From assembly GCA_903944555.1 (NCBI GenBank), contig CAJASG010000062.1, forward strand, positions 1 to 10,730: a stretch of DNA of 10,730 nt. Reading direction: 5' to 3'. A model generated the notes under the pieces. That model searched no databases. It was given only the letters and a program-made list of their open reading frames with translations, and was not told the origin of the DNA. This DNA is from an uncultured beta proteobacterium. GTDB taxonomy: Bacteria; Pseudomonadota; Gammaproteobacteria; Burkholderiales; Burkholderiaceae_C. Positions 2,680 to 10,248 of this stretch are shown here, piece after piece (within the stretch, counting starts at the first letter, position 1; every line of letters starts with the position of its first letter). Both the position numbers and the translations under genes were made by a program.

Positions 2680-2690
2680 CCCGGTTTTAT

Positions 2691-4823
2691 ATGTCAAATA
2701 GTGCTGAAAGCCCCGTGGCGTATGCGCAACCAGCTCCTAAAACAGGAGCAGTTCAGATTCTGATTGTGGAAGATGAGATGGTGGTGGCGCGCGATGTACA
2801 GCTCCAGTTGGAGCTGTTGGGCTACGGGGTAGCGGGCCATACCACCCGGGGTGAAGACGCCATCACGCTCGCAGGCCAGTTGCGCCCCGACATGGTGCTG
2901 ATGGACATTCAGCTCGCCGGGGCCATGGACGGCGTGAGCGCTGCGCGGGCCATACGCGACCAGTTTGGCGTGCCCGTCATCTTTTTGACGGCGTTTGCAG
3001 CGGATGAGATTCTGGCCCGCGCCAAGATGGTGGAACCCTATGGCTACATCCTGAAGCCCTTTTCCGAGCGCGAGCTGAAAACCGTGCTCGAAATGGCACT
3101 GTACAAACACCAGGCGGAAACTCGGCTGCGCGAATCTGCGCTGCACAACCAGACCATCTTGGACAACATGGTGGACGGCGTCATCACCATCAGCGAACTT
3201 GGCGTGATCGAGTCGTTCAACAACGCCGCCTGCCGCCTGTTTGGCTACACCCCTGCCGAAGTGCTGGGCTGCAACGTGGCCATGCTCATGCCCGAGCCGC
3301 ACCACGGCCACCACGACGATTATTTGCAGCACTACCGCAAAACGGGGGAGTCCCGCATGTTGGGCAAGCCGCGCGAGGTGCAGGGGCGCCGGCTGGATGG
3401 CAGCGTGTTTCCCATGATGCTGTCGGTCTCCGGCGTTACGCGTGGTGGGCAAACGACTTTTATTGGCTTGGTGCGCGACCAGTCCGAGCACCACAGCGAC
3501 CTGGAAGAGATCCGCCGACTGGCGTTTCACGACGCCCTGACCGGTCTGCCCAACCGCCGCTTGCTGATGGACCGGCTGCAGCAAGCCATGCGCACCTCTG
3601 CGCGCACCGGTCTGCACGGCGCCCTGATGTTTCTGGACCTGGACCACTTCAAGCAGTTGAACGACACGCTGGGCCATGATGTCGGGGACGAGTTGCTGCA
3701 GCAGGTGGCCTCCCGGCTGCGCGCCTGTGTGCGGGAGGGCGATAGCGTTGCCCGCCTCGGGGGTGACGAGTTTGTGGTGTTGCTGGAGGCCTTGAGCCCC
3801 CATGCGCTGGAGGCGGCGACCCAAGGCGAGTGCATCGCCATCAAAATTCTGGAGACCTTGGGCCACCCCTGCCAACTTAAAAACCACAGCTACGCCATTA
3901 CCCCCAGCGTGGGGATTGTCGAGTTTCTGGGGGAGCACCAGACGCTGGAAGACCTGATGAAGATGGCCGATGTGGCCATGTACCAGGCCAAATCCGCCGG
4001 GCGCAACACCATTTGCTTTTTTGACCCCGACATGCAAGCGGCTGCGGCCGCCCACACGGCGCTGGAGAAAGACCTGCGCAAGGGCGTGGCAAACCACGAG
4101 TTCGTGCTGCACTACCAAATCCAGGTGGACGGGGATGGTCGTCCGACCGGTGCCGAAGCCCTGGTGCGCTGGCACCATATGGCGCGTGGCATGGTGTCGC
4201 CTGCCCACTTTATCCCGCTGGCAGAGGAAACCGGGCTGATTTTGCCGCTGGGCCAATGGGTGCTGGAGACGGCCTGCGCGCAGCTGGTGCAGTGGGCCCT
4301 GGCCCCCGCCACTGCGCACTGGACCGTGGCGGTCAACGTCAGCGCATCGCAGTTTGCCCAGCCCAACTTTGTGGCCAATGTCAGCACCGCATTGGAGAAA
4401 ACCGGGGCCAACCCCAAGCTGCTCAAACTGGAGCTGACCGAAAGCATGCTGGTGGCCGACGTGGACGCCATCATCGTCAAGATGAACGCCATCATGCAGC
4501 GCGGGGTCAGATTCTCGCTGGACGACTTTGGCACCGGCTATTCGTCTTTAAGCTACCTCAAGCGCCTGCCACTCTCGCAGCTCAAAATTGACCAGTCCTT
4601 TGTACGCGATGTGCTGACTGACCCGAGTGACGCGGTCATTGCCCGCACGATTTTGGCCCTGGGCCACAGCCTGGGTCTGAAGGTGATTGCCGAGGGTGTG
4701 GAGACTGCGGAACAACACCAATTTTTGGCTGACTTGGGCTGTGATGCGTTTCAGGGCTACCTCTTTGGTCGCCCCGTGGCGGCGGAAAATTTATTGGGAT
4801 TTGAGGGTGAAATATGTCGCTAA
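2691..4823 (+). CDS. REC-PAS-GGDEF-EAL bifunctional c-di-GMP synthase/phosphodiesterase
   Basis: A 710-residue cytoplasmic enzyme predicted to make and/or break cyclic-di-GMP under receiver and PAS control. The receiver (about 21-137) has E27/D28, phospho-acceptor D72, T100 and K122; its MDIQLAGAMDG and EPYGYILKPFSEREL motifs are of the type found with HisKA_2 kinases. The PAS domain (about 150-265) is FixL-like, with His208 and Arg228 at the positions of the haem ligand and a haem-pocket arginine. The GGDEF domain (about 275-445) has an intact GGDEF at 357-361 and an RxxD inhibitory site at R348-D351. The EAL domain (about 455-700) has E489-A-L, N549, ELTES at 581-585, DDFGTG at 611-616, K632 and E668, so catalysis should be possible. 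The first 20 residues are encoded by repeat copy A. The gap to cheV is 11 nt and no clear Shine-Dalgarno is seen. Confidence 0.95.
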   Translation: MSNSAESPVAYAQPAPKTGAVQILIVEDEMVVARDVQLQLELLGYGVAGHTTRGEDAITLAGQLRPDMVLMDIQLAGAMDGVSAARAIRDQFGVPVIFLTAFAADEILARAKMVEPYGYILKPFSERELKTVLEMALYKHQAETRLRESALHNQTILDNMVDGVITISELGVIESFNNAACRLFGYTPAEVLGCNVAMLMPEPHHGHHDDYLQHYRKTGESRMLGKPREVQGRRLDGSVFPMMLSVSGVTRGGQTTFIGLVRDQSEHHSDLEEIRRLAFHDALTGLPNRRLLMDRLQQAMRTSARTGLHGALMFLDLDHFKQLNDTLGHDVGDELLQQVASRLRACVREGDSVARLGGDEFVVLLEALSPHALEAATQGECIAIKILETLGHPCQLKNHSYAITPSVGIVEFLGEHQTLEDLMKMADVAMYQAKSAGRNTICFFDPDMQAAAAAHTALEKDLRKGVANHEFVLHYQIQVDGDGRPTGAEALVRWHHMARGMVSPAHFIPLAEETGLILPLGQWVLETACAQLVQWALAPATAHWTVAVNVSASQFAQPNFVANVSTALEKTGANPKLLKLELTESMLVADVDAIIVKMNAIMQRGVRFSLDDFGTGYSSLSYLKRLPLSQLKIDQSFVRDVLTDPSDAVIARTILALGHSLGLKVIAEGVETAEQHQFLADLGCDAFQGYLFGRPVAAENLLGFEGEICR
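2696..2753 (+). repeat. Junction repeat, copy A (coding, N-terminus of the GGDEF-EAL protein)
   Basis: One of four related copies of a short element found at gene junctions here. Its last 34 nt (2720-2753) match copy B (4834-4867) at 31 of 34 positions by hand count. It is translated as part of the downstream protein; the core reads YAQPAPKTGA. It lies immediately before the receiver domain, so the first 20 residues of that protein are element-derived rather than part of the fold. Confidence 0.8.
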
Positions 4824-4867
4824 CCCTTATGGAGTATGCGCAAGCAGCTACTAAAACAAGAGCAGTT
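4811..4867 (+). repeat. Junction repeat, copy B (between GGDEF-EAL gene and HK1)
   Basis: This copy overlaps the last codons and stop (4821-4823) of the GGDEF-EAL gene and fills nearly all of the 49-nt gap before HK1. The core tatgcgcaagcagctact is shared with copies A and D with small changes. In the same frame as the other copies it reads YAQAATKTRA. It contains a weak purine stretch (aagagc) ahead of the HK1 start. Confidence 0.8.
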
Positions 4868-4876
4868 CTGCAATGA
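4814..4876 (+). CDS. Possible 20-codon coupling mini-ORF inside repeat B
   Basis: An ATG at 4814, inside the end of the GGDEF-EAL gene, opens a 20-codon frame running through repeat B (MSLTLMEYAQ...). Its TGA at 4874-4876 overlaps the HK1 start as ATGA. It could carry ribosomes from the upstream gene to HK1 across the 49-nt gap. It resembles no known peptide to me, has no visible Shine-Dalgarno of its own, and may not be translated. Confidence 0.25.
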   Translation: MSLTLMEYAQAATKTRAVLQ

Positions 4877-6882
4877 AAAAATTACCAAAAGTGGCCGTCA
4901 AGCTGCTTTGGATCGCAGCCGGGCTCGTGGTCGGCAGCGGTGTGCTGCTGGCGCTGGCGCTGAACCATTTGTTCGAGCTCACCCATGAGGCCGCCCACCA
5001 GGGCACCGCAGCCGTGGCGCGCATCGTGCAGGAACAAACCGACCGCACCTTGCAAAACGTGGACCAGCGGCTGCAGTTGGCAGCGGTTCGGCTGGAGCAG
5101 CTGCACCGAGCCAGTGCGCTGACCACCGAGTCCGCCCAAGCCATGCTGCGCGGGGAGGTGAAAGACCTTCCCTTTGTGCGCGCCTTGTGGGTTATGGATA
5201 CCAAGGGCGTCATCGTGTACGACTCGGACAATGGCAACCTGGGTGTGAACCTGTCCGATCGCGCCTATTTTCAGGCGCACCTGCAGCAGCCCGCAACCGG
5301 ATTCTTTTTGGGTGCGCCGGTTAAAAACCGCAAGGGCGTTTGGGTCATGAGTGCCTCGCGGGCCCTTCATGGCGCCGACGGCGCGTTCGCCGGCATTGTG
5401 GTGGCCGCGCTCAGTCCGACCTATTTTGAGCAGCTGTGGGCTGAGCTGGACTTGGGGCCGGGTGGGTCAGTGGGTCTGTTTGGCCGTGATGCGGTGCTGC
5501 TGATGCGAAGCCCTTTTGTGGACGCCCTGATGGGCAAGCCATTTCCCGAGCTGCCGGTGTTTGACCTGTTGCCGCAAAACAAGCCTGCCGGTACGTTTGA
5601 GGCGCCCTCTGCGTTTGACCAGGTTGAGCGCGACTATGCCTACCGCACCTTGGCGCACTTCCCTGCCGTGGTGGTGGTGGGCAAGGCGCACGAGGTGACC
5701 TTTTTGGCTTGGCGACGCATGGTCGCCCTGTCGGTGACCATCTGGATTTCTGCCAGCGCTTGCGTGGCGTGGTTGTTGTTCCTGTTGGTGCGCGACTTGG
5801 TCAAGCGCGAGGTGGTCGAGCAGGCGCTGCGCCAAAGCAAAACCCAGTTGCGATCCATGTTGGACGCTCTGCCCGATCTGATGTTTGAGATGGACGCGGA
5901 CGGCCGTTACTACGACTACCACTCCCCCAGGGTTGACCTGCTGGCGGCGCCTCCCGACAAGCTGCAGAGTAAAACCATCGTTGAAATATTGCCGCCCGAG
6001 GCTGCGAAAACCACACTGCTCACGCTGCACGAAGCGCTGGAAACCGGGAAGTCCAGCGGCCGCCAGATCGAGATTCAGTTGGCGCAAGGCCTTCGCTGGT
6101 TTGAACTTTCTGCCTCCCGCAAAGAGCAGCTACCAGGCGAAGGCCCGCGCTGCATCGTCTTGTCGCGTGACATCACCGAGCGGAAACAGGACGCCATCGC
6201 GTTGCAAAACGCCCTGGACGAAAAAGTGGGCCTGCTCAACGAAGTCCACCATCGGGTGAAGAACAATCTCCAGGTCATCACAAGCCTGCTGCGCCTGGAG
6301 GCCAATCGCAGTGCACATGAGGAGACCAAAGCAAGTCTGGGCGACATGCAGGGGCGCATCCGCTCCATGGCCTTACTGCACGAGTCGCTGTACCGCACTG
6401 GCACCTTTGCGTCGGTGGAATTGGGCGCGTACTTGACGCAGCTGTGCACGCAGGCCTTTCGCGCCAGTGCCCAGCAAAACGAAGGCGTGCAGCTGGTGCT
6501 GGACGTGGGCGCGGTGCAGGTCAGCCTGGACCAGGCGACCCCGTGCGGTTTGCTGGTCAATGAGCTGGTCTCCAACTGCTTCAAGCACGGTTTCCCAGGG
6601 GGGCGCACGGGGGAGGTGCGTGTGGCCCTGGTGCCGTTGGACGCCAGTCAGTGGAGCTTGAGCGTGAGCGACAACGGCGTGGGCTTGGCCCACGACTTTG
6701 ACGCCCGGCGCGCCACCTCGCTGGGGCTGCAGTTGGTGTCGGATTTGGCCCAGCAGTTGAACGGCAAGCTGGCGGTCGGCCCCGGACCGGGGGCGGCGTT
6801 TACCGTGGTATTTTCGATAAATCAGCCTGTAGCCCCTGCAGGACAAGCGCAGTCAGCTATTAAATCAGGAGCGGATGCATGA
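4873..6882 (+). CDS. HK1: membrane dCache-PAS-HisKA_2 sensor histidine kinase
   Basis: A 669-residue inner-membrane histidine kinase. After a short basic N-terminus (MKKLPKVAVK), a membrane helix at about 10-31 is followed by a periplasmic double-Cache sensor (about 35-272; NLSDRAYFQAHL and GFFLGAPVKNRKGVWVMSASR are typical Cache segments). A second membrane helix lies at about 283-306, a PAS domain at about 318-437, a HisKA_2 dimerisation domain with EVHHRVKNNLQV (H459/H460), and an ATPase domain with N-box NELVSN (563-568) and DNGVGL (600-605). The Cache fold suggests binding of a small extracellular ligand, unidentified. It has no receiver of its own; the REC of the upstream GGDEF-EAL enzyme is a plausible target (inference). 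The kinase core is a close paralogue of HK3. The last 19 or so residues come from repeat copy C. The stop overlaps the HK2 start (ATGA at 6879). Confidence 0.94.
   Translation: MKKLPKVAVKLLWIAAGLVVGSGVLLALALNHLFELTHEAAHQGTAAVARIVQEQTDRTLQNVDQRLQLAAVRLEQLHRASALTTESAQAMLRGEVKDLPFVRALWVMDTKGVIVYDSDNGNLGVNLSDRAYFQAHLQQPATGFFLGAPVKNRKGVWVMSASRALHGADGAFAGIVVAALSPTYFEQLWAELDLGPGGSVGLFGRDAVLLMRSPFVDALMGKPFPELPVFDLLPQNKPAGTFEAPSAFDQVERDYAYRTLAHFPAVVVVGKAHEVTFLAWRRMVALSVTIWISASACVAWLLFLLVRDLVKREVVEQALRQSKTQLRSMLDALPDLMFEMDADGRYYDYHSPRVDLLAAPPDKLQSKTIVEILPPEAAKTTLLTLHEALETGKSSGRQIEIQLAQGLRWFELSASRKEQLPGEGPRCIVLSRDITERKQDAIALQNALDEKVGLLNEVHHRVKNNLQVITSLLRLEANRSAHEETKASLGDMQGRIRSMALLHESLYRTGTFASVELGAYLTQLCTQAFRASAQQNEGVQLVLDVGAVQVSLDQATPCGLLVNELVSNCFKHGFPGGRTGEVRVALVPLDASQWSLSVSDNGVGLAHDFDARRATSLGLQLVSDLAQQLNGKLAVGPGPGAAFTVVFSINQPVAPAGQAQSAIKSGADA
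6817..6872 (+). repeat. Junction repeat, copy C (C-terminal tail of HK1 and HK2 Shine-Dalgarno)
   Basis: Diverged copy of the junction element, entirely within the HK1 coding region after its ATPase domain. The element frame is the HK1 frame and the core reads QAQSAIKSGA. It contains the 8-nt palindrome cctgcagg (6835-6842) and the ggag at 6868-6871 that serves HK2. Compared with copies A and B the 3' core keeps caGctattaaAtCaggagc-type spacing. Confidence 0.72.
6868..6871 (+). promoter_or_regulatory. Shine-Dalgarno for HK2, supplied by repeat C
   Basis: GGAG lies 7 nt before the ATG at 6879. It is the best-spaced ribosome binding site in the window and supports that start. It lies inside the repeat; the aligned positions in copy A are also ggag and in copy B agag. 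Confidence 0.65.
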
Positions 6883-7961
6883 GGCATCCCCGCGAGTTGG
6901 AGGACTTCAAGGCCGCACTGGACGCGCACGCCATCGTGGCCATTACCGATGCCCGTGGCACCATCACCTATGTCAACGACAAGTTCTGCGCCATCTCCAA
7001 GTGGTCGCGCGACGAGCTGCTGGGCAGCGACCACCGCATCATCAACTCCGGCCACCACCCGAAGGCCTTTATCCAGTCGCTGTGGGACACCATTCGCAGC
7101 GGGCAGGTGTGGAAGGGCGAGCTGAAAAACCTCGCCAAAGACGGCAGCATCTATTGGGTGGACACCACCATCGTGCCGTTTTTGGGCGATGACGGCCAAC
7201 CCTTTCAGTACATCGCCATCCGGGCCGAGATCACCGCGCGCAAGCTGCTGGAGGAGCACAACGTGGAACTGGTGGCCGAGCTGCAAGGCGCCAACCGCGA
7301 GCTCAATGACTTTGCCTATATCGTGTCGCACGACCTCAAAGCGCCCCTGCGCGGCATCAGCTCGCTGGCCAACTGGCTGAGTGCCGACTACGCCGACAAG
7401 CTGGGCGCCGAAGGCAGCACCCAGCTGGGCTTGATTGTCAGCCGTGCCAAGCGCTTAGGTGCCCTGGTGGACGGTATTTTGGCCTACTCCCGCGCCGGGC
7501 GGGGCCGTGAGGAGCGCATGGCCGTGGAGCTGGACCCGCTGGTGCGCAACACCATCGACTTGCTGGCGGCACCGCCCCACATTACCGTCACCCTTGCGAC
7601 GCCACTGCCGCGCCTGTGGATGGAGCCGTTCAAGGCGCAGCAGGTGTTTCAAAACCTGTTGTCCAACGCCATCAAGTTCGCGGATAAACCCCAAAGCCGC
7701 ATCACCGTGGACTGTGTTTTAGAGGGTGCTTTTTGGCATTTCAGTGTGACTGACAACGGCATCGGCATTGATGAAAAGTATTTTGGCAAAGTGTTTCAAC
7801 TGTTCCAGACACTGGCCCCGCGCGACAAGATTGAAGGAACGGGCGTCGGTTTGGCACTCGTCAAGAGAATTGTTGAAATCGAGGGGGGCAGCGTCTGGCT
7901 GGAGTCCTGCCCAGGGGTGGGCACGACCTTTCACTTCACCCTCCCCCAGGAAGGAACTTGA
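6879..7961 (+). CDS. HK2: soluble PAS-HisKA histidine kinase with Cph1-like DHp
   Basis: A 360-residue histidine kinase without membrane segments. An N-terminal PAS domain (about 8-122) has the sequence style of Aer/MmoS-like PAS domains (HRIINSGHHPKAF, then a WKGELKNLAKDGSIYWV stretch at 78-94); flavin binding is possible but not shown. A short helix leads to a HisKA domain, FAYIVSHDLKAPLRGI, with phospho-acceptor H151, and an ATPase domain with N263 (LLSNAIKF), DNGIGI at 292-297 and GTGVGLALVKR at 320-330. The DHp wording (ELNDFAYIVSHDLK) is that of the Cph1 phytochrome kinase family, but the GAF/PHY light-sensing module is absent. The receiver four nt downstream is Rcp1-like, so the two are probably a cognate pair. 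The ATG at 6879 overlaps the HK1 stop and has GGAG 7 nt upstream. Confidence 0.94.
   Translation: MRHPRELEDFKAALDAHAIVAITDARGTITYVNDKFCAISKWSRDELLGSDHRIINSGHHPKAFIQSLWDTIRSGQVWKGELKNLAKDGSIYWVDTTIVPFLGDDGQPFQYIAIRAEITARKLLEEHNVELVAELQGANRELNDFAYIVSHDLKAPLRGISSLANWLSADYADKLGAEGSTQLGLIVSRAKRLGALVDGILAYSRAGRGREERMAVELDPLVRNTIDLLAAPPHITVTLATPLPRLWMEPFKAQQVFQNLLSNAIKFADKPQSRITVDCVLEGAFWHFSVTDNGIGIDEKYFGKVFQLFQTLAPRDKIEGTGVGLALVKRIVEIEGGSVWLESCPGVGTTFHFTLPQEGT
7948..7955 (+). promoter_or_regulatory. Shine-Dalgarno for the Rcp1-like receiver
   Basis: The purine-rich AGGAAGGA ends 10 nt before the ATG at 7966. It supports that ATG over an in-frame upstream ATG at 7768, which would lie deep inside HK2. 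Confidence 0.6.
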
Positions 7962-7965
7962 CCCC

Positions 7966-8382
7966 ATGCAAGCCCATGAACATATTTTGCTGGTCGAAGA
8001 CGATGACGTGGACGTCATGACCGTACGCCGCTCCCTCAAAGAGCTGGGCGCACCCAACCCGCTGGACCTGGTGTGCGATGGTGAACAGGCACTGGCCTTT
8101 TTGCGCGACCCGGCCAGCGCGCGCCCGGGCCTGATTTTGCTGGACCTGAACATGCCGCGCATGAACGGCGTGGAGTTTCTGGTGGAGGTGCACAAAGACC
8201 CGGCCCTGAAGAGCATTCCCGTGGTGGTGTTGACGACATCACAGTTGGAGTCGGACCGTGTCGCTTCTTTTGGCAACTGTGTGGCGGGCTATATGGTCAA
8301 GCCGGTGGACTACCCCCAGTTTGTGCAAACCATGCGCGTGATTTGTGACTACTGGACAGCGAGCGTTTCGTCCCCTGTATGA
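7966..8382 (+). CDS. Single-domain response regulator, Rcp1-like
   Basis: A 138-residue stand-alone receiver with no output domain. It has the acid triad E11/D12/D13 in LLVEDDDVDV, phospho-acceptor D60 in ILLDLNMPRMNG, T90 in VVVLTTS and K112 in VKPVD, so it should be phosphorylatable. The VEDDDVD start, the LNMPRMNGVEFL segment and the long final helix fit the Rcp1 family that partners Cph1-type kinases, matching HK2 immediately upstream (4-nt gap). As it lacks an effector it probably works as a phospho-shuttle or by protein contact, possibly toward HK3, whose start overlaps its stop (ATGA at 8379-8382). That target is inference. Confidence 0.95.
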   Translation: MQAHEHILLVEDDDVDVMTVRRSLKELGAPNPLDLVCDGEQALAFLRDPASARPGLILLDLNMPRMNGVEFLVEVHKDPALKSIPVVVLTTSQLESDRVASFGNCVAGYMVKPVDYPQFVQTMRVICDYWTASVSSPV

Positions 8383-10205
8383 CCCTGCCTACTACCCTTA
8401 CCGCAACACCGATCGAGTTGCTGCTCATCGAAGACGATCTGGTGGATGAACTCGCCCTGATCCGGGCCTTGCAGCACCGCCAGCCGCCTTACCGGGTGAG
8501 CGTGGCACGCTCGGTGGCGCAAGCGCGTACGGCACTCGCGGCGCAGCACTTTGACATCATTTTGGCCGACTGCCAGTTGGGCGATGGCACCTCGTTTGAG
8601 CTGATGGATGCCCTGGCCGGTCAGCTGTTCATCTTCGTCACGGGTGCCGGTGATGAAGACCTGGCGGTGCGTGCGCTTGAAATGGGCGCGCATGATTACT
8701 TGCTGAAAGACGACGCGCACGGCTATCTGAAGTTGCTGCCCTGGCGGGTGCAAACCGCGCTGCGCCAGCGTGCAATGGCCAGGCACCTGGAAAAGAGTGA
8801 GATCAAGTTCAAAGCGGTGCTTGACGCCTCCCCGGTGCCCACCGCCTTGAACGATGAAGCCCTGAATGTCACCTACCTGAACCCGGCTTTCGTGGAAACC
8901 TTTGGCTATACGGCACAGGACATCCCGAACATCGTCGACTGGTGGCCGCTGGCGTACCCGGATCCCACGTATGCCCAAGGGGTGCAAGACGCCTGGGTTG
9001 CCAGATTCAAAGAGTCCAAGCGTACGGGCAATGCCTTCGTGCCGCTGGAGGTCAAGATCCGCTGCAAAGATGGCAGCGACCGGTTTGCACTGGTGAGCGC
9101 CTCGTCCTTGATCCCCGGTTTTGAAGAGGTCCATTTGGTGTTGCTGTACGACATCACCGAACGCCTACACAGCGAGCAGGTGTTGCGTGACCGCGAGCAG
9201 CGCTTTCGTGACCTGGTGGAGTCCTCCGACGGCATTGTGTGGGAGGCGGATGCGCAGACCTTTGGTTTTCAGTCCGTCAGCGAGAACGCCGAGCGCATGC
9301 TGGGCTACCCCGCCCAGGACTGGTTGCAGAGTGGGTTTTGGGCCAGCCACATTCACCCCGAAGACCGGGAGCAGGCGATTGCGCACTGCGCCTCCTGCAC
9401 CGGCCGTCTGGAAGACCACGACTTTGAATACCGCTTTATGGCCAGCGGCGGGCGTGTGGTGTGGCTGCGGGACATTGTGCGGGTGGTGGCAGATAACGGG
9501 CAGCCGCGCTGGCTGCGTGGGCTCATGATTGACATCACCCGGCACAAGCAGGTGGAAAGCGAGCTGCACACGGCGTTGCTGGATAAGACCGCCCTGCTGA
9601 AAGAAGTGCACCACCGGGTCAAAAACAACCTCCAGGTGATCACCAGTTTGCTGCGGCTGGAGGCCGCCCGCGGCACGCAGGCCGAAACCAAAATCGTGCT
9701 GGGCGAGATGCAGGCGCGCATACGGTCGATGGCGCTGCTGCACGAATCGCTGTACCGCGCGAACAGTTTTGCGCAGGTGGACTTGGGTGCCTACCTGAAA
9801 CAGCTCAGTCAGCAGGCGTTTCGCGCCAGTGCCGACAGTGGCACGGTGCGTCTGGAGCAGGACATGGTGCAGGTGCCTGTCAGCCTGGACCAGGCCACTC
9901 CCGCCGGTTTACTGGTCAACGAACTGATCTCCAACAGCTTGAAGCATGCATTTCCCCAGGGGCGCAGTGGCGTGGTGCGTGTCACCCTGCAACCGACGCC
10001 GGACGGTCGCTGGTGTCTGCAGGTCAGCGACGACGGCGTTGGCCTGCCCGGCGACTTTGCCGCGCGGCGCACCCAGTCGCTGGGCTTGCAGCTGGTGGAC
10101 GACCTGTCTCAGCAAATGCAGGGCAACTTGCACGTTGAGTCATCCATTGGCGCGTCAGGCGGCTCCAGTTTCAGTGTCATTTTTACAAGCCAAATATGCC
10201 TCTAG
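8379..10205 (+). CDS. HK3: soluble REC-PAS-PAS-HisKA_2 hybrid histidine kinase
   Basis: A 608-residue cytoplasmic kinase. An N-terminal receiver (about 11-130) has E18/D19/D20, phospho-acceptor D64 (ADCQLGDG), T88 and K110 (YLLKDD). Two PAS domains follow, about 138-262 (ends YDITERLHSEQ) and about 270-391, the second of the PAS_3 type with FWASHIHPEDR. The HisKA_2 domain has EVHHRVKNNLQV (H411/H412) and the ATPase domain has NELISN (514-519) and DDGVGL (551-556). The receiver at the front suggests that phosphorylation by another kinase controls its activity, for example through the Rcp1-like protein just upstream. The core is a paralogue of HK1: over the 82 residues from the H-box region onward I count 62 identities, ungapped. 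No Shine-Dalgarno is seen and the ATGA overlap implies translational coupling. Its last few residues and stop lie in repeat copy D. Confidence 0.94.
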   Translation: MTLPTTLTATPIELLLIEDDLVDELALIRALQHRQPPYRVSVARSVAQARTALAAQHFDIILADCQLGDGTSFELMDALAGQLFIFVTGAGDEDLAVRALEMGAHDYLLKDDAHGYLKLLPWRVQTALRQRAMARHLEKSEIKFKAVLDASPVPTALNDEALNVTYLNPAFVETFGYTAQDIPNIVDWWPLAYPDPTYAQGVQDAWVARFKESKRTGNAFVPLEVKIRCKDGSDRFALVSASSLIPGFEEVHLVLLYDITERLHSEQVLRDREQRFRDLVESSDGIVWEADAQTFGFQSVSENAERMLGYPAQDWLQSGFWASHIHPEDREQAIAHCASCTGRLEDHDFEYRFMASGGRVVWLRDIVRVVADNGQPRWLRGLMIDITRHKQVESELHTALLDKTALLKEVHHRVKNNLQVITSLLRLEAARGTQAETKIVLGEMQARIRSMALLHESLYRANSFAQVDLGAYLKQLSQQAFRASADSGTVRLEQDMVQVPVSLDQATPAGLLVNELISNSLKHAFPQGRSGVVRVTLQPTPDGRWCLQVSDDGVGLPGDFAARRTQSLGLQLVDDLSQQMQGNLHVESSIGASGGSSFSVIFTSQICL

Positions 10206-10248
10206 CCCTTGTCAAACGTGCGCAAGCAGCTATGTTTTCGATAGCAAA
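10191..10248 (+). repeat. Junction repeat, copy D (HK3 end to start of next gene)
   Basis: Fourth copy. It starts inside the last codons of HK3, contains its stop (10203-10205), and runs over the start of the next gene. The segment tgcgcaagcagcta matches copy B exactly. An ATG at 10196 aligns with the ATG at 4814 in copy B, and the shared frame reads RAQAAMFSIA into the downstream protein. The 3' part is more diverged. Confidence 0.75.

Follow-up and report, generated by a model that had tools for sequence, protein, structure and literature searches.

The four copies in the window

The DNA analysed here, referred to as the window, is a stretch of 10,730 nucleotides that makes up the entire contig G000:C62 of a metagenome-assembled genome (MAG; 4.07 Mb, 792 contigs). 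The host genus is labelled g1, and G007 is a complete genome of the same genus. The window carries four copies (A to D) of a dispersed motif of about 65 bp, for which a role resembling that of DNA uptake sequences is proposed below with reserve. When searched with a profile built from 50 copies of the MAG itself (E <= 1), the window gave matches at exactly four places, all on the + strand (36-57 bits). Along the DNA, the copies and the genes around them (domains according to Pfam) are as follows.

2685..2753, + strand: copy A (43.1 bits, E 3e-13), over the start of the REC-PAS-GGDEF-EAL gene, whose N-terminus it encodes in frame f0
2691..4823, + strand: REC-PAS-GGDEF-EAL protein
4799..4867, + strand: copy B (56.5 bits, E 2e-17), across the 3' end of the GGDEF-EAL gene, stopping just 5' of HK1
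4873..6882, + strand: HK1, dCache-PAS-HisKA_2 histidine kinase
6810..6875, + strand: copy C (36.4 bits, E 4e-11), in the C-terminal tail of HK1 past the ATPase domain, the tail overlapping the HK2 start
6879..7961, + strand: HK2, PAS-HisKA histidine kinase
8379..10205, + strand: REC-PAS-HisKA_2 kinase, its 3' half paralogous to HK1 (72% identical repeats D1, D2)
10182..10248, + strand: copy D (52.9 bits, E 3e-16), covering the end of the second HisKA_2 kinase gene and the beginning of the open reading frame (ORF) that follows

An earlier note on this DNA had described four copies of a junction repeat with a common open frame. The copies are real and were placed correctly within 12 nt, the element reaching 7-12 nt further 5', and the frame GCG-CAA-GCA-GCT (f0) is indeed open in all four. 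As the note had stated, copy A is fused as an N-terminus, its frame being the start of the ORF 2691-4823, and copy B lies at the HK1 start, where a short ORF runs from ATG 4814 to TGA 4874-4876 and overlaps both the end of the GGDEF-EAL gene and the HK1 ATG at 4873; the TAA of the GGDEF-EAL gene (4821-4823) falls within the motif itself. The similarity of A and B was likewise described correctly, with three differing positions in the 3' half. Copy C is the tail of HK1, as had been read, with HATPase_c ending upstream of it at amino acid 647 of 669. Copy D runs into the next ORF (start 10196), and the TAG that closes the second HisKA_2 kinase is the motif's own TAG; the dCache label given to that next ORF was wrong, since the Pfam dCache domain sits in HK1, and the 178 amino acids of the ORF inside the window gave no Pfam match. 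The stretch taken for a ggag/agag ribosome site turned out to be the variable 3' end of the motif (ATAGC, GTAGC or GGAGC).

Of eight relatives, five carried the motif at the copy B locus (G093 49.7 bits, G031 27.6, G080 24.1, G094 18.6, G022 17.7), and three, G061, G023 and G084, did not. At the locus of copy A, the gene 5' end gave no match in any of eight relatives.

Size, shape and reading frames of the motif

The note's view of the element as a dispersed repeat of the family was borne out: the MAG contains 180 matches at <=2 mismatches (81 on the + and 99 on the - strand), as against 0 and 1 for the reversed pattern. Alignment of 50 copies from this genome revealed a rigid element, conserved from about -39 to +28 around GCGC, with nearly flat sequence beyond. 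In G007 the consensus is TTTGAGTCAAATCGGCCTCTAGCGCCCGTGGAATATGCGCGAGCAGCTACTAAATTGATAGCAAA, with a GC content of 48% by hand count, and 248 copies hold 61.4 bits over 95 columns when a background of 60% GC is assumed.

The conserved TAG at -17, TNA at +13 and TAG at +22 all lie in frame f1. Among 49 copies with both neighbouring genes on the opposite strand, f0 was open in 25, f2 in 22 and f1 in 1. The openness of f0 that the copies share is thus explained by the consensus, which places its conserved stops in f1.

The consensus is imperfectly palindromic (-13.8 kcal/mol). The arms showed no covariation, the mean z being -0.1 for the 20 pairs in the fold of the G007 consensus, and in the MAG none of six pairs in the alifold model had double changes. 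The strongest couplings in G007 were between adjacent bases, notably in A-tracts, which are AAA or TTT depending on the copy; these neighbour and A-tract couplings suggest double-stranded DNA that is read by its shape. In the window, no Rfam family reached its gathering score; three matches below threshold lay near copy B.

Abundance and position in the genome

G007 was sampled in 98 segments of up to about 20 kb, covering about half of the genome, and 250 of 290 profile hits were retained (>=28 bits, overlaps removed), 117 on the + and 133 on the - strand. Controls were nearly empty: 400 kb of the element-free genome G062 gave one 24.1-bit match and the rest below 10, and reversed G007 gave nothing above 9.1 bits.

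In tandem gaps 47 copies faced with the genes and 49 against them; 40 copies lay in convergent gaps, 13 in divergent gaps, 99 in ORFs (45 with, 54 against) and two at edges. Per gap this amounts to 96/1164 (0.082) for tandem, 40/243 (0.165) for convergent and 13/254 (0.05) for divergent gaps. The copies are tied to gene 3' ends whichever way they face, which accounts for the position of the four window copies at gene junctions. The MAG gave a similar set of counts: of 51 copies, 10 faced with and 11 against the genes in tandem gaps, 7 lay in convergent and 3 in divergent gaps, 8 and 6 in ORFs, and 6 at edges. The tabulation by strand and frame which the earlier note had called for has a double outcome: one frame prevails inside genes (40/44 on the same strand in G007), and there is no orientation bias relative to genes.

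In the 94 segments of G007 used for the spacing test (four of the 98 were dropped), the copies were more evenly distributed than random (variance/mean 0.53, p 6e-5). Neighbouring pairs were scarce at short range, with 1 observed versus 13.2 expected below 500 bp, 6 versus 25.6 below 1 kb and 28 versus 47.6 below 2 kb. Copy counts rose with codon typicality (rho 0.50) and with GC (0.61); taking typicality as a proxy for foreign DNA, there were 1.75 copies per 20 kb in the lowest quartile versus 3.3 in the highest. Four segments, two of them AT-rich, had no copies. Inspection by eye of 100-kb bins indicated no clustering in one region of the G007 chromosome.

A replichore polarity had been hinted at by single-contig genomes, in which, among the matches listed, only + copies stood in the first 1 Mb and beyond 3 Mb. 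The even sampling of G007 gave no clean pattern, although its strands depart somewhat from random order, and we suspect that the earlier impression came from the selection of listed places.

Copies inside genes

Inside predicted ORFs of G007 lay 99 of the 250 copies, and since the G062 and reversed-G007 controls were nearly empty, these are not chance coding matches. The core could be located in 96 of the 99, and 72 of these are flanked on both sides by coding-like sequence in the same frame, with the motif itself scoring less coding-like than the flanks in nearly every row. One frame dominates: f0 in 40 of 44 same-strand copies and a single frame in 45 of 52 opposite-strand copies. Host genes include those for LolD, TruB, MurI, Maf, IcmF, LpxB, RmlD, PepN, PrmC, DapE (PrmC and DapE being identified from their sequence) and a DnaE-type polymerase. 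On the basis of the frame data an inserted mobile repeat was at first favoured; the alignments with homologs set this explanation back.

Insertion of a 65-bp repeat predicts 21-22 additional amino acids at the site. We compared 13 sites with homologs, namely those for which a comparison was obtainable, with no random draw; homologs with solved structures were assumed to be motif-free. Left out were L115:16281, L135:9885 and L158:6238, judged paralogous at 32-44% identity, and two alignments that missed the motif. PGI gave no homolog match at the chosen cut-off, and in the DnaE-type polymerase the copies were beyond, or at the margin of, the aligned regions. No full insertion was found at any of the 13 sites, the largest gain being +11 residues. 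The net change was zero at eight: PrmC, LolD, IcmF, Maf, RmlD, LpxB, L122:12205 and L165:8606. For Maf this holds against the best match 4oo0, with +4 against 4p0e. For PrmC the length was the same in 13 of 20 element-poor genomes, and the other seven had gaps of a few residues.

In nine near-ungapped cases (DapE, TruB, MurI and L165:9222 were left out of this test) 73 of 195 motif-encoded residues were identical to those of the homolog, as were 159 of 205 residues of the flanks. When peptides of other in-gene copies were put in their place, the mean was 30.0 and the count was at most 45 in 20,000 draws. At the prmC and dapE sites, motif scores in 30 relatives formed a gradation between about 52 and about 14 bits, and no score above 6.4 was reached in 20 element-poor genomes. 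With native residues kept and native length unchanged at eight of the 13 sites, the motif evidently arose in place in the compared genes; it grew from the sequence already there, and protein conservation suffered to some degree.

Distribution and dialects

Among 100 genomes of the genus, 38 had no match, 40 had at least 50 and 22 fell between. Across 397 genomes of the family, drawn from 126 genera (<=2 mismatches), the totals ranged from 0 to 499 (G112), with reversed-pattern controls of <=16. In 290 genomes from 49 other families of the order there were at most two matches each at <=1 mismatch to this dialect's pattern, which other dialects would escape. An exact 31-base match to the motif occurred in 13 stretches, in records named Rhodoferax, Curvibacter, Burkholderiales, Pseudomonadota and uncultured beta proteobacterium. 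Neither 72,556 plasmid records nor 50,697 phage records gave a match at E 0.01 to copy B, a single diverged query of 71 bp and hence of low sensitivity.

In fourteen carrier genera the outer parts of the motif are common, while several genera differ in the middle ~16 bases, consistently within the genus. Distinct middles were seen in G132, G199, G220, G156, G316 and g1, as judged from two to four copies in each genome, and several other genera share a common GCGCTT...AAGCGC form. In genus g30, GCCTAAGCAGCTA or a near form starts 8 of 10 copies in G316 and 6 of 10 in G128, among the matches listed.

ComEC was found in 91 of the 100 genus genomes irrespective of the motif and is therefore uninformative on a link with competence. 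The Y1 transposase domain PF01797 was matched in 93 of 100 regardless of the motif, and a transposase link was rejected, the Y1 genes standing in element-rich and element-free genomes alike. A protein of about 240 amino acids with a Y1-transposase domain occurs in genus g1, mostly one per genome, with the motif present or not.

Comparison with known systems

To our knowledge, uptake sequences are established only in Neisseriaceae and Pasteurellaceae. Searches of the open-licence PubMed Central (PMC) literature turned up no uptake sequence for Comamonadaceae, for betaproteobacteria genome-wide or for Burkholderiales, and the core sequence GCGCAAGCAGCTAT was not found there; within the open-licence literature searched, the motif is previously unreported.

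Like the DNA uptake sequences (DUS) of Neisseriaceae, the motif occurs in hundreds of copies, and its copies inside genes are limited by a stop in one frame (PMC3630211, PMC2397512). DUS also prefer the core genome, are absent from recently acquired genes, form dialects per species group and are missing from some relatives, as is the case here (PMC3630211, PMC2397512). Many new DUS have been argued to arrive by recombination rather than by point mutation (PMC2397512). The motif differs in its length of ~65 bp, against 10-12 bp in DUS, and DUS often form inverted-repeat terminators, of which none were seen in G007. For DUS, moreover, a bias in uptake has been proven and the receptor, ComP, is known; for the present motif both are putative.

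With the uptake signal sequences (USS) of Pasteurellaceae the motif shares a core with an AT-rich flank, as in the extended USS (PMC12616744, PMC1939737, PMC2346458), and a preference for the ends of genes and for a single in-frame orientation (PMC2346458). USS are described as arising by gradual point mutation of existing sequence in place (PMC1939737). Unlike the motif, they have a 9-bp core and a 17-bp extended form of different sequence, and belong to gammaproteobacteria.

The betaproteobacterial repeat element BRE, also dispersed, both intergenic and intragenic, has been reported in Polaromonas, Rhodoferax and Delftia (PMC3110155). It differs in being ~90 bp long, with 69% GC in Bordetella, tandem and resembling variable number tandem repeats, and in having four copies in R. 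ferrireducens (PMC3110155). Identity with BRE was rejected, as the motif has 65 bp, 48% GC and hundreds of mostly spaced copies; the distinction is drawn from length, GC and layout as described for BRE.

Rickettsia palindromic elements are in-frame insertions that place repeat-encoded peptides inside many proteins. The motif is likewise in-frame in many proteins, but it mostly replaces native residues in place, whereas the Rickettsia elements are insertions. Repetitive extragenic palindromes (REP) and bacterial interspersed mosaic elements (BIME), which go with REP-associated tyrosine transposases (RAYT), are small, palindrome-like and near gene 3' ends. Unlike these, the motif is without covariation and without correlation to Y1 transposases, and it stands in housekeeping genes without full insertion.

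Interpretation of the motif

Abundance, occurrence on both strands, in-place origin, stop-free frames, gene-end bias, preference for the core genome and dialects are as in DUS and USS, and on these grounds we give an even chance to the reading that the motif is an unusually long, uptake-sequence-like DNA motif which would spread by in-place evolution under molecular drive. Motif-bearing DNA would be preferentially taken up by relatives and then recombined, biased uptake being the presumed driving force and a pilus receptor the putative reader of the motif. Better matches would thereby be driven up at tolerant sites, namely gene 3' ends, gaps and soft stretches of proteins in stop-free frames. 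A wider proposal is made tentatively, from analogy and on the doubtful side of even: that a third lineage, the Rhodoferax-Curvibacter branch of the Burkholderiales, may independently have evolved 65-bp DNA uptake sequences with genus dialects, driven in place into hundreds of sites, some of them in housekeeping enzymes; transformation would thereby reshape the proteome. If true, this would be an independent and far longer case of uptake sequences in free-living bacteria, and it would allow one to study what makes such motifs evolve, to what extent molecular drive bends proteins and in which way dialects separate gene pools.

Several observations speak against an uptake sequence. With ~65 bp and ~61 bits, compared with the 9-12 bp cores of known uptake sequences, the motif has no short core, and many steps would have to be driven. 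The spacing in G007 is more regular than a published account of uptake sequences allows (PMC1939737), and no inverted pairs serving as terminators were seen there, the sole pair closer than 500 bp being direct. Even spacing is itself broken in places: at L006, L046, L060 and L071, two to four copies of the same orientation with common flanks follow each other at 600-1050 bp (perhaps gene-cassette arrays), and at the copy B locus of G080 a further copy (45.5 bits) follows a short way downstream, the two lying within ~180 bp. Nine genus genomes had no ComEC match, and five of these are element-rich (the MAG, G012, G020, G026 at 99% completeness, and G030) and four element-free. The stretch of G007 from 1.90 to 2.69 Mb is rich in + copies (38/53) and the remainder in - copies (118/197), a partition matched in only 3 of 200 shuffles and unexplained; strand runs have z -2.2, with one run of 20 sampled + copies from 1.90 to ~2.2 Mb (C1, L120-L128). 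Gains in length were found at five of the 13 compared sites: PepN +1 or +3, MurI about +3, TruB +4, L165:9222 +8 and DapE +4 to +11. In DapE (loci L221-L270) the gain lies in the loop preceding GHTDVVP, where G007 exceeds 17 element-poor genomes by 4-11 residues, which suggests that some copies may add length. At the copy B locus, a clean gap of ~57 nt sets G061 apart from the related G031, the sole case of presence and absence by a clean indel; loss in G061 would seem likelier than gain, being simpler given near relatives that carry the motif. Finally, the gene calls come from a home-made caller, which recovered all nine ORFs of the window and shifted three starts downstream.

The strong regularity of spacing, the length and the lack of inverted-pair terminators leave a chromosome-organising site as the main rival, which we regard as unlikely yet deserving of serious attention. 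The motif would then be the binding site of a chromosomal protein, acting in compaction, segregation, repair or the end of transcription, and selected at hundreds of places. In-place origin, even spacing, both strands and genus-specific middles fit any reader of double-stranded DNA, and the swaps between AAA and TTT, as judged from the neighbour couplings, resemble indirect readout. Uptake sequences are described as less even than compaction sites should be (PMC1939737), and the strand-biased stretch of G007 could mean a link with replication. It is nevertheless hard to imagine that selection at each of ~500 sites would suffice to bend LolD, PrmC or RmlD; no regional clustering was evident by eye in 100-kb bins, and the patchy presence of the motif within the genus would be odd for a core function of the chromosome. 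Even with such a different reader protein, a 65-bp motif within housekeeping genes without full insertion demands explanation.

A mobile or copied palindromic repeat of the REP, Rickettsia or miniature inverted-repeat transposable element (MITE) type, inserted in gaps and in-frame in genes, appears improbable. Dispersal in genes and gaps, the imperfect palindrome, the lengthened DapE loop, the one clean junction and the clustered arrays could be understood in this way. However, none of the compared in-gene copies had the length of an insertion and native residues are kept; the arms do not covary and Y1 genes are independent of the motif; the G007 copies avoid one another and atypical DNA; and copy B was unmatched in plasmid and phage records, as far as one diverged query of low sensitivity can tell.

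An element of the transcript 3' end (RNA hairpin, terminator or stability element) would agree with the gene 3' end preference, but is very improbable given the lack of strand preference, of compensatory pairs and of an Rfam match at gathering score. The frame-conserved role in coupling the translation of successive genes, which the earlier note had proposed from four copies at gene boundaries with f0 open, hardly deserves credence and is dropped as a general role, since copies face with and against the genes in equal numbers, f0 is open yet unread in 25 of the 49 copies with both neighbours on the opposite strand, and many copies lie in genes or convergent gaps.

Paralogous kinase segments

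The 3' halves of the two HisKA_2 kinases of the window, at 6168-6767 and 9530-10126, are paralogous, with 72% DNA identity, and copies C and D follow directly after them.

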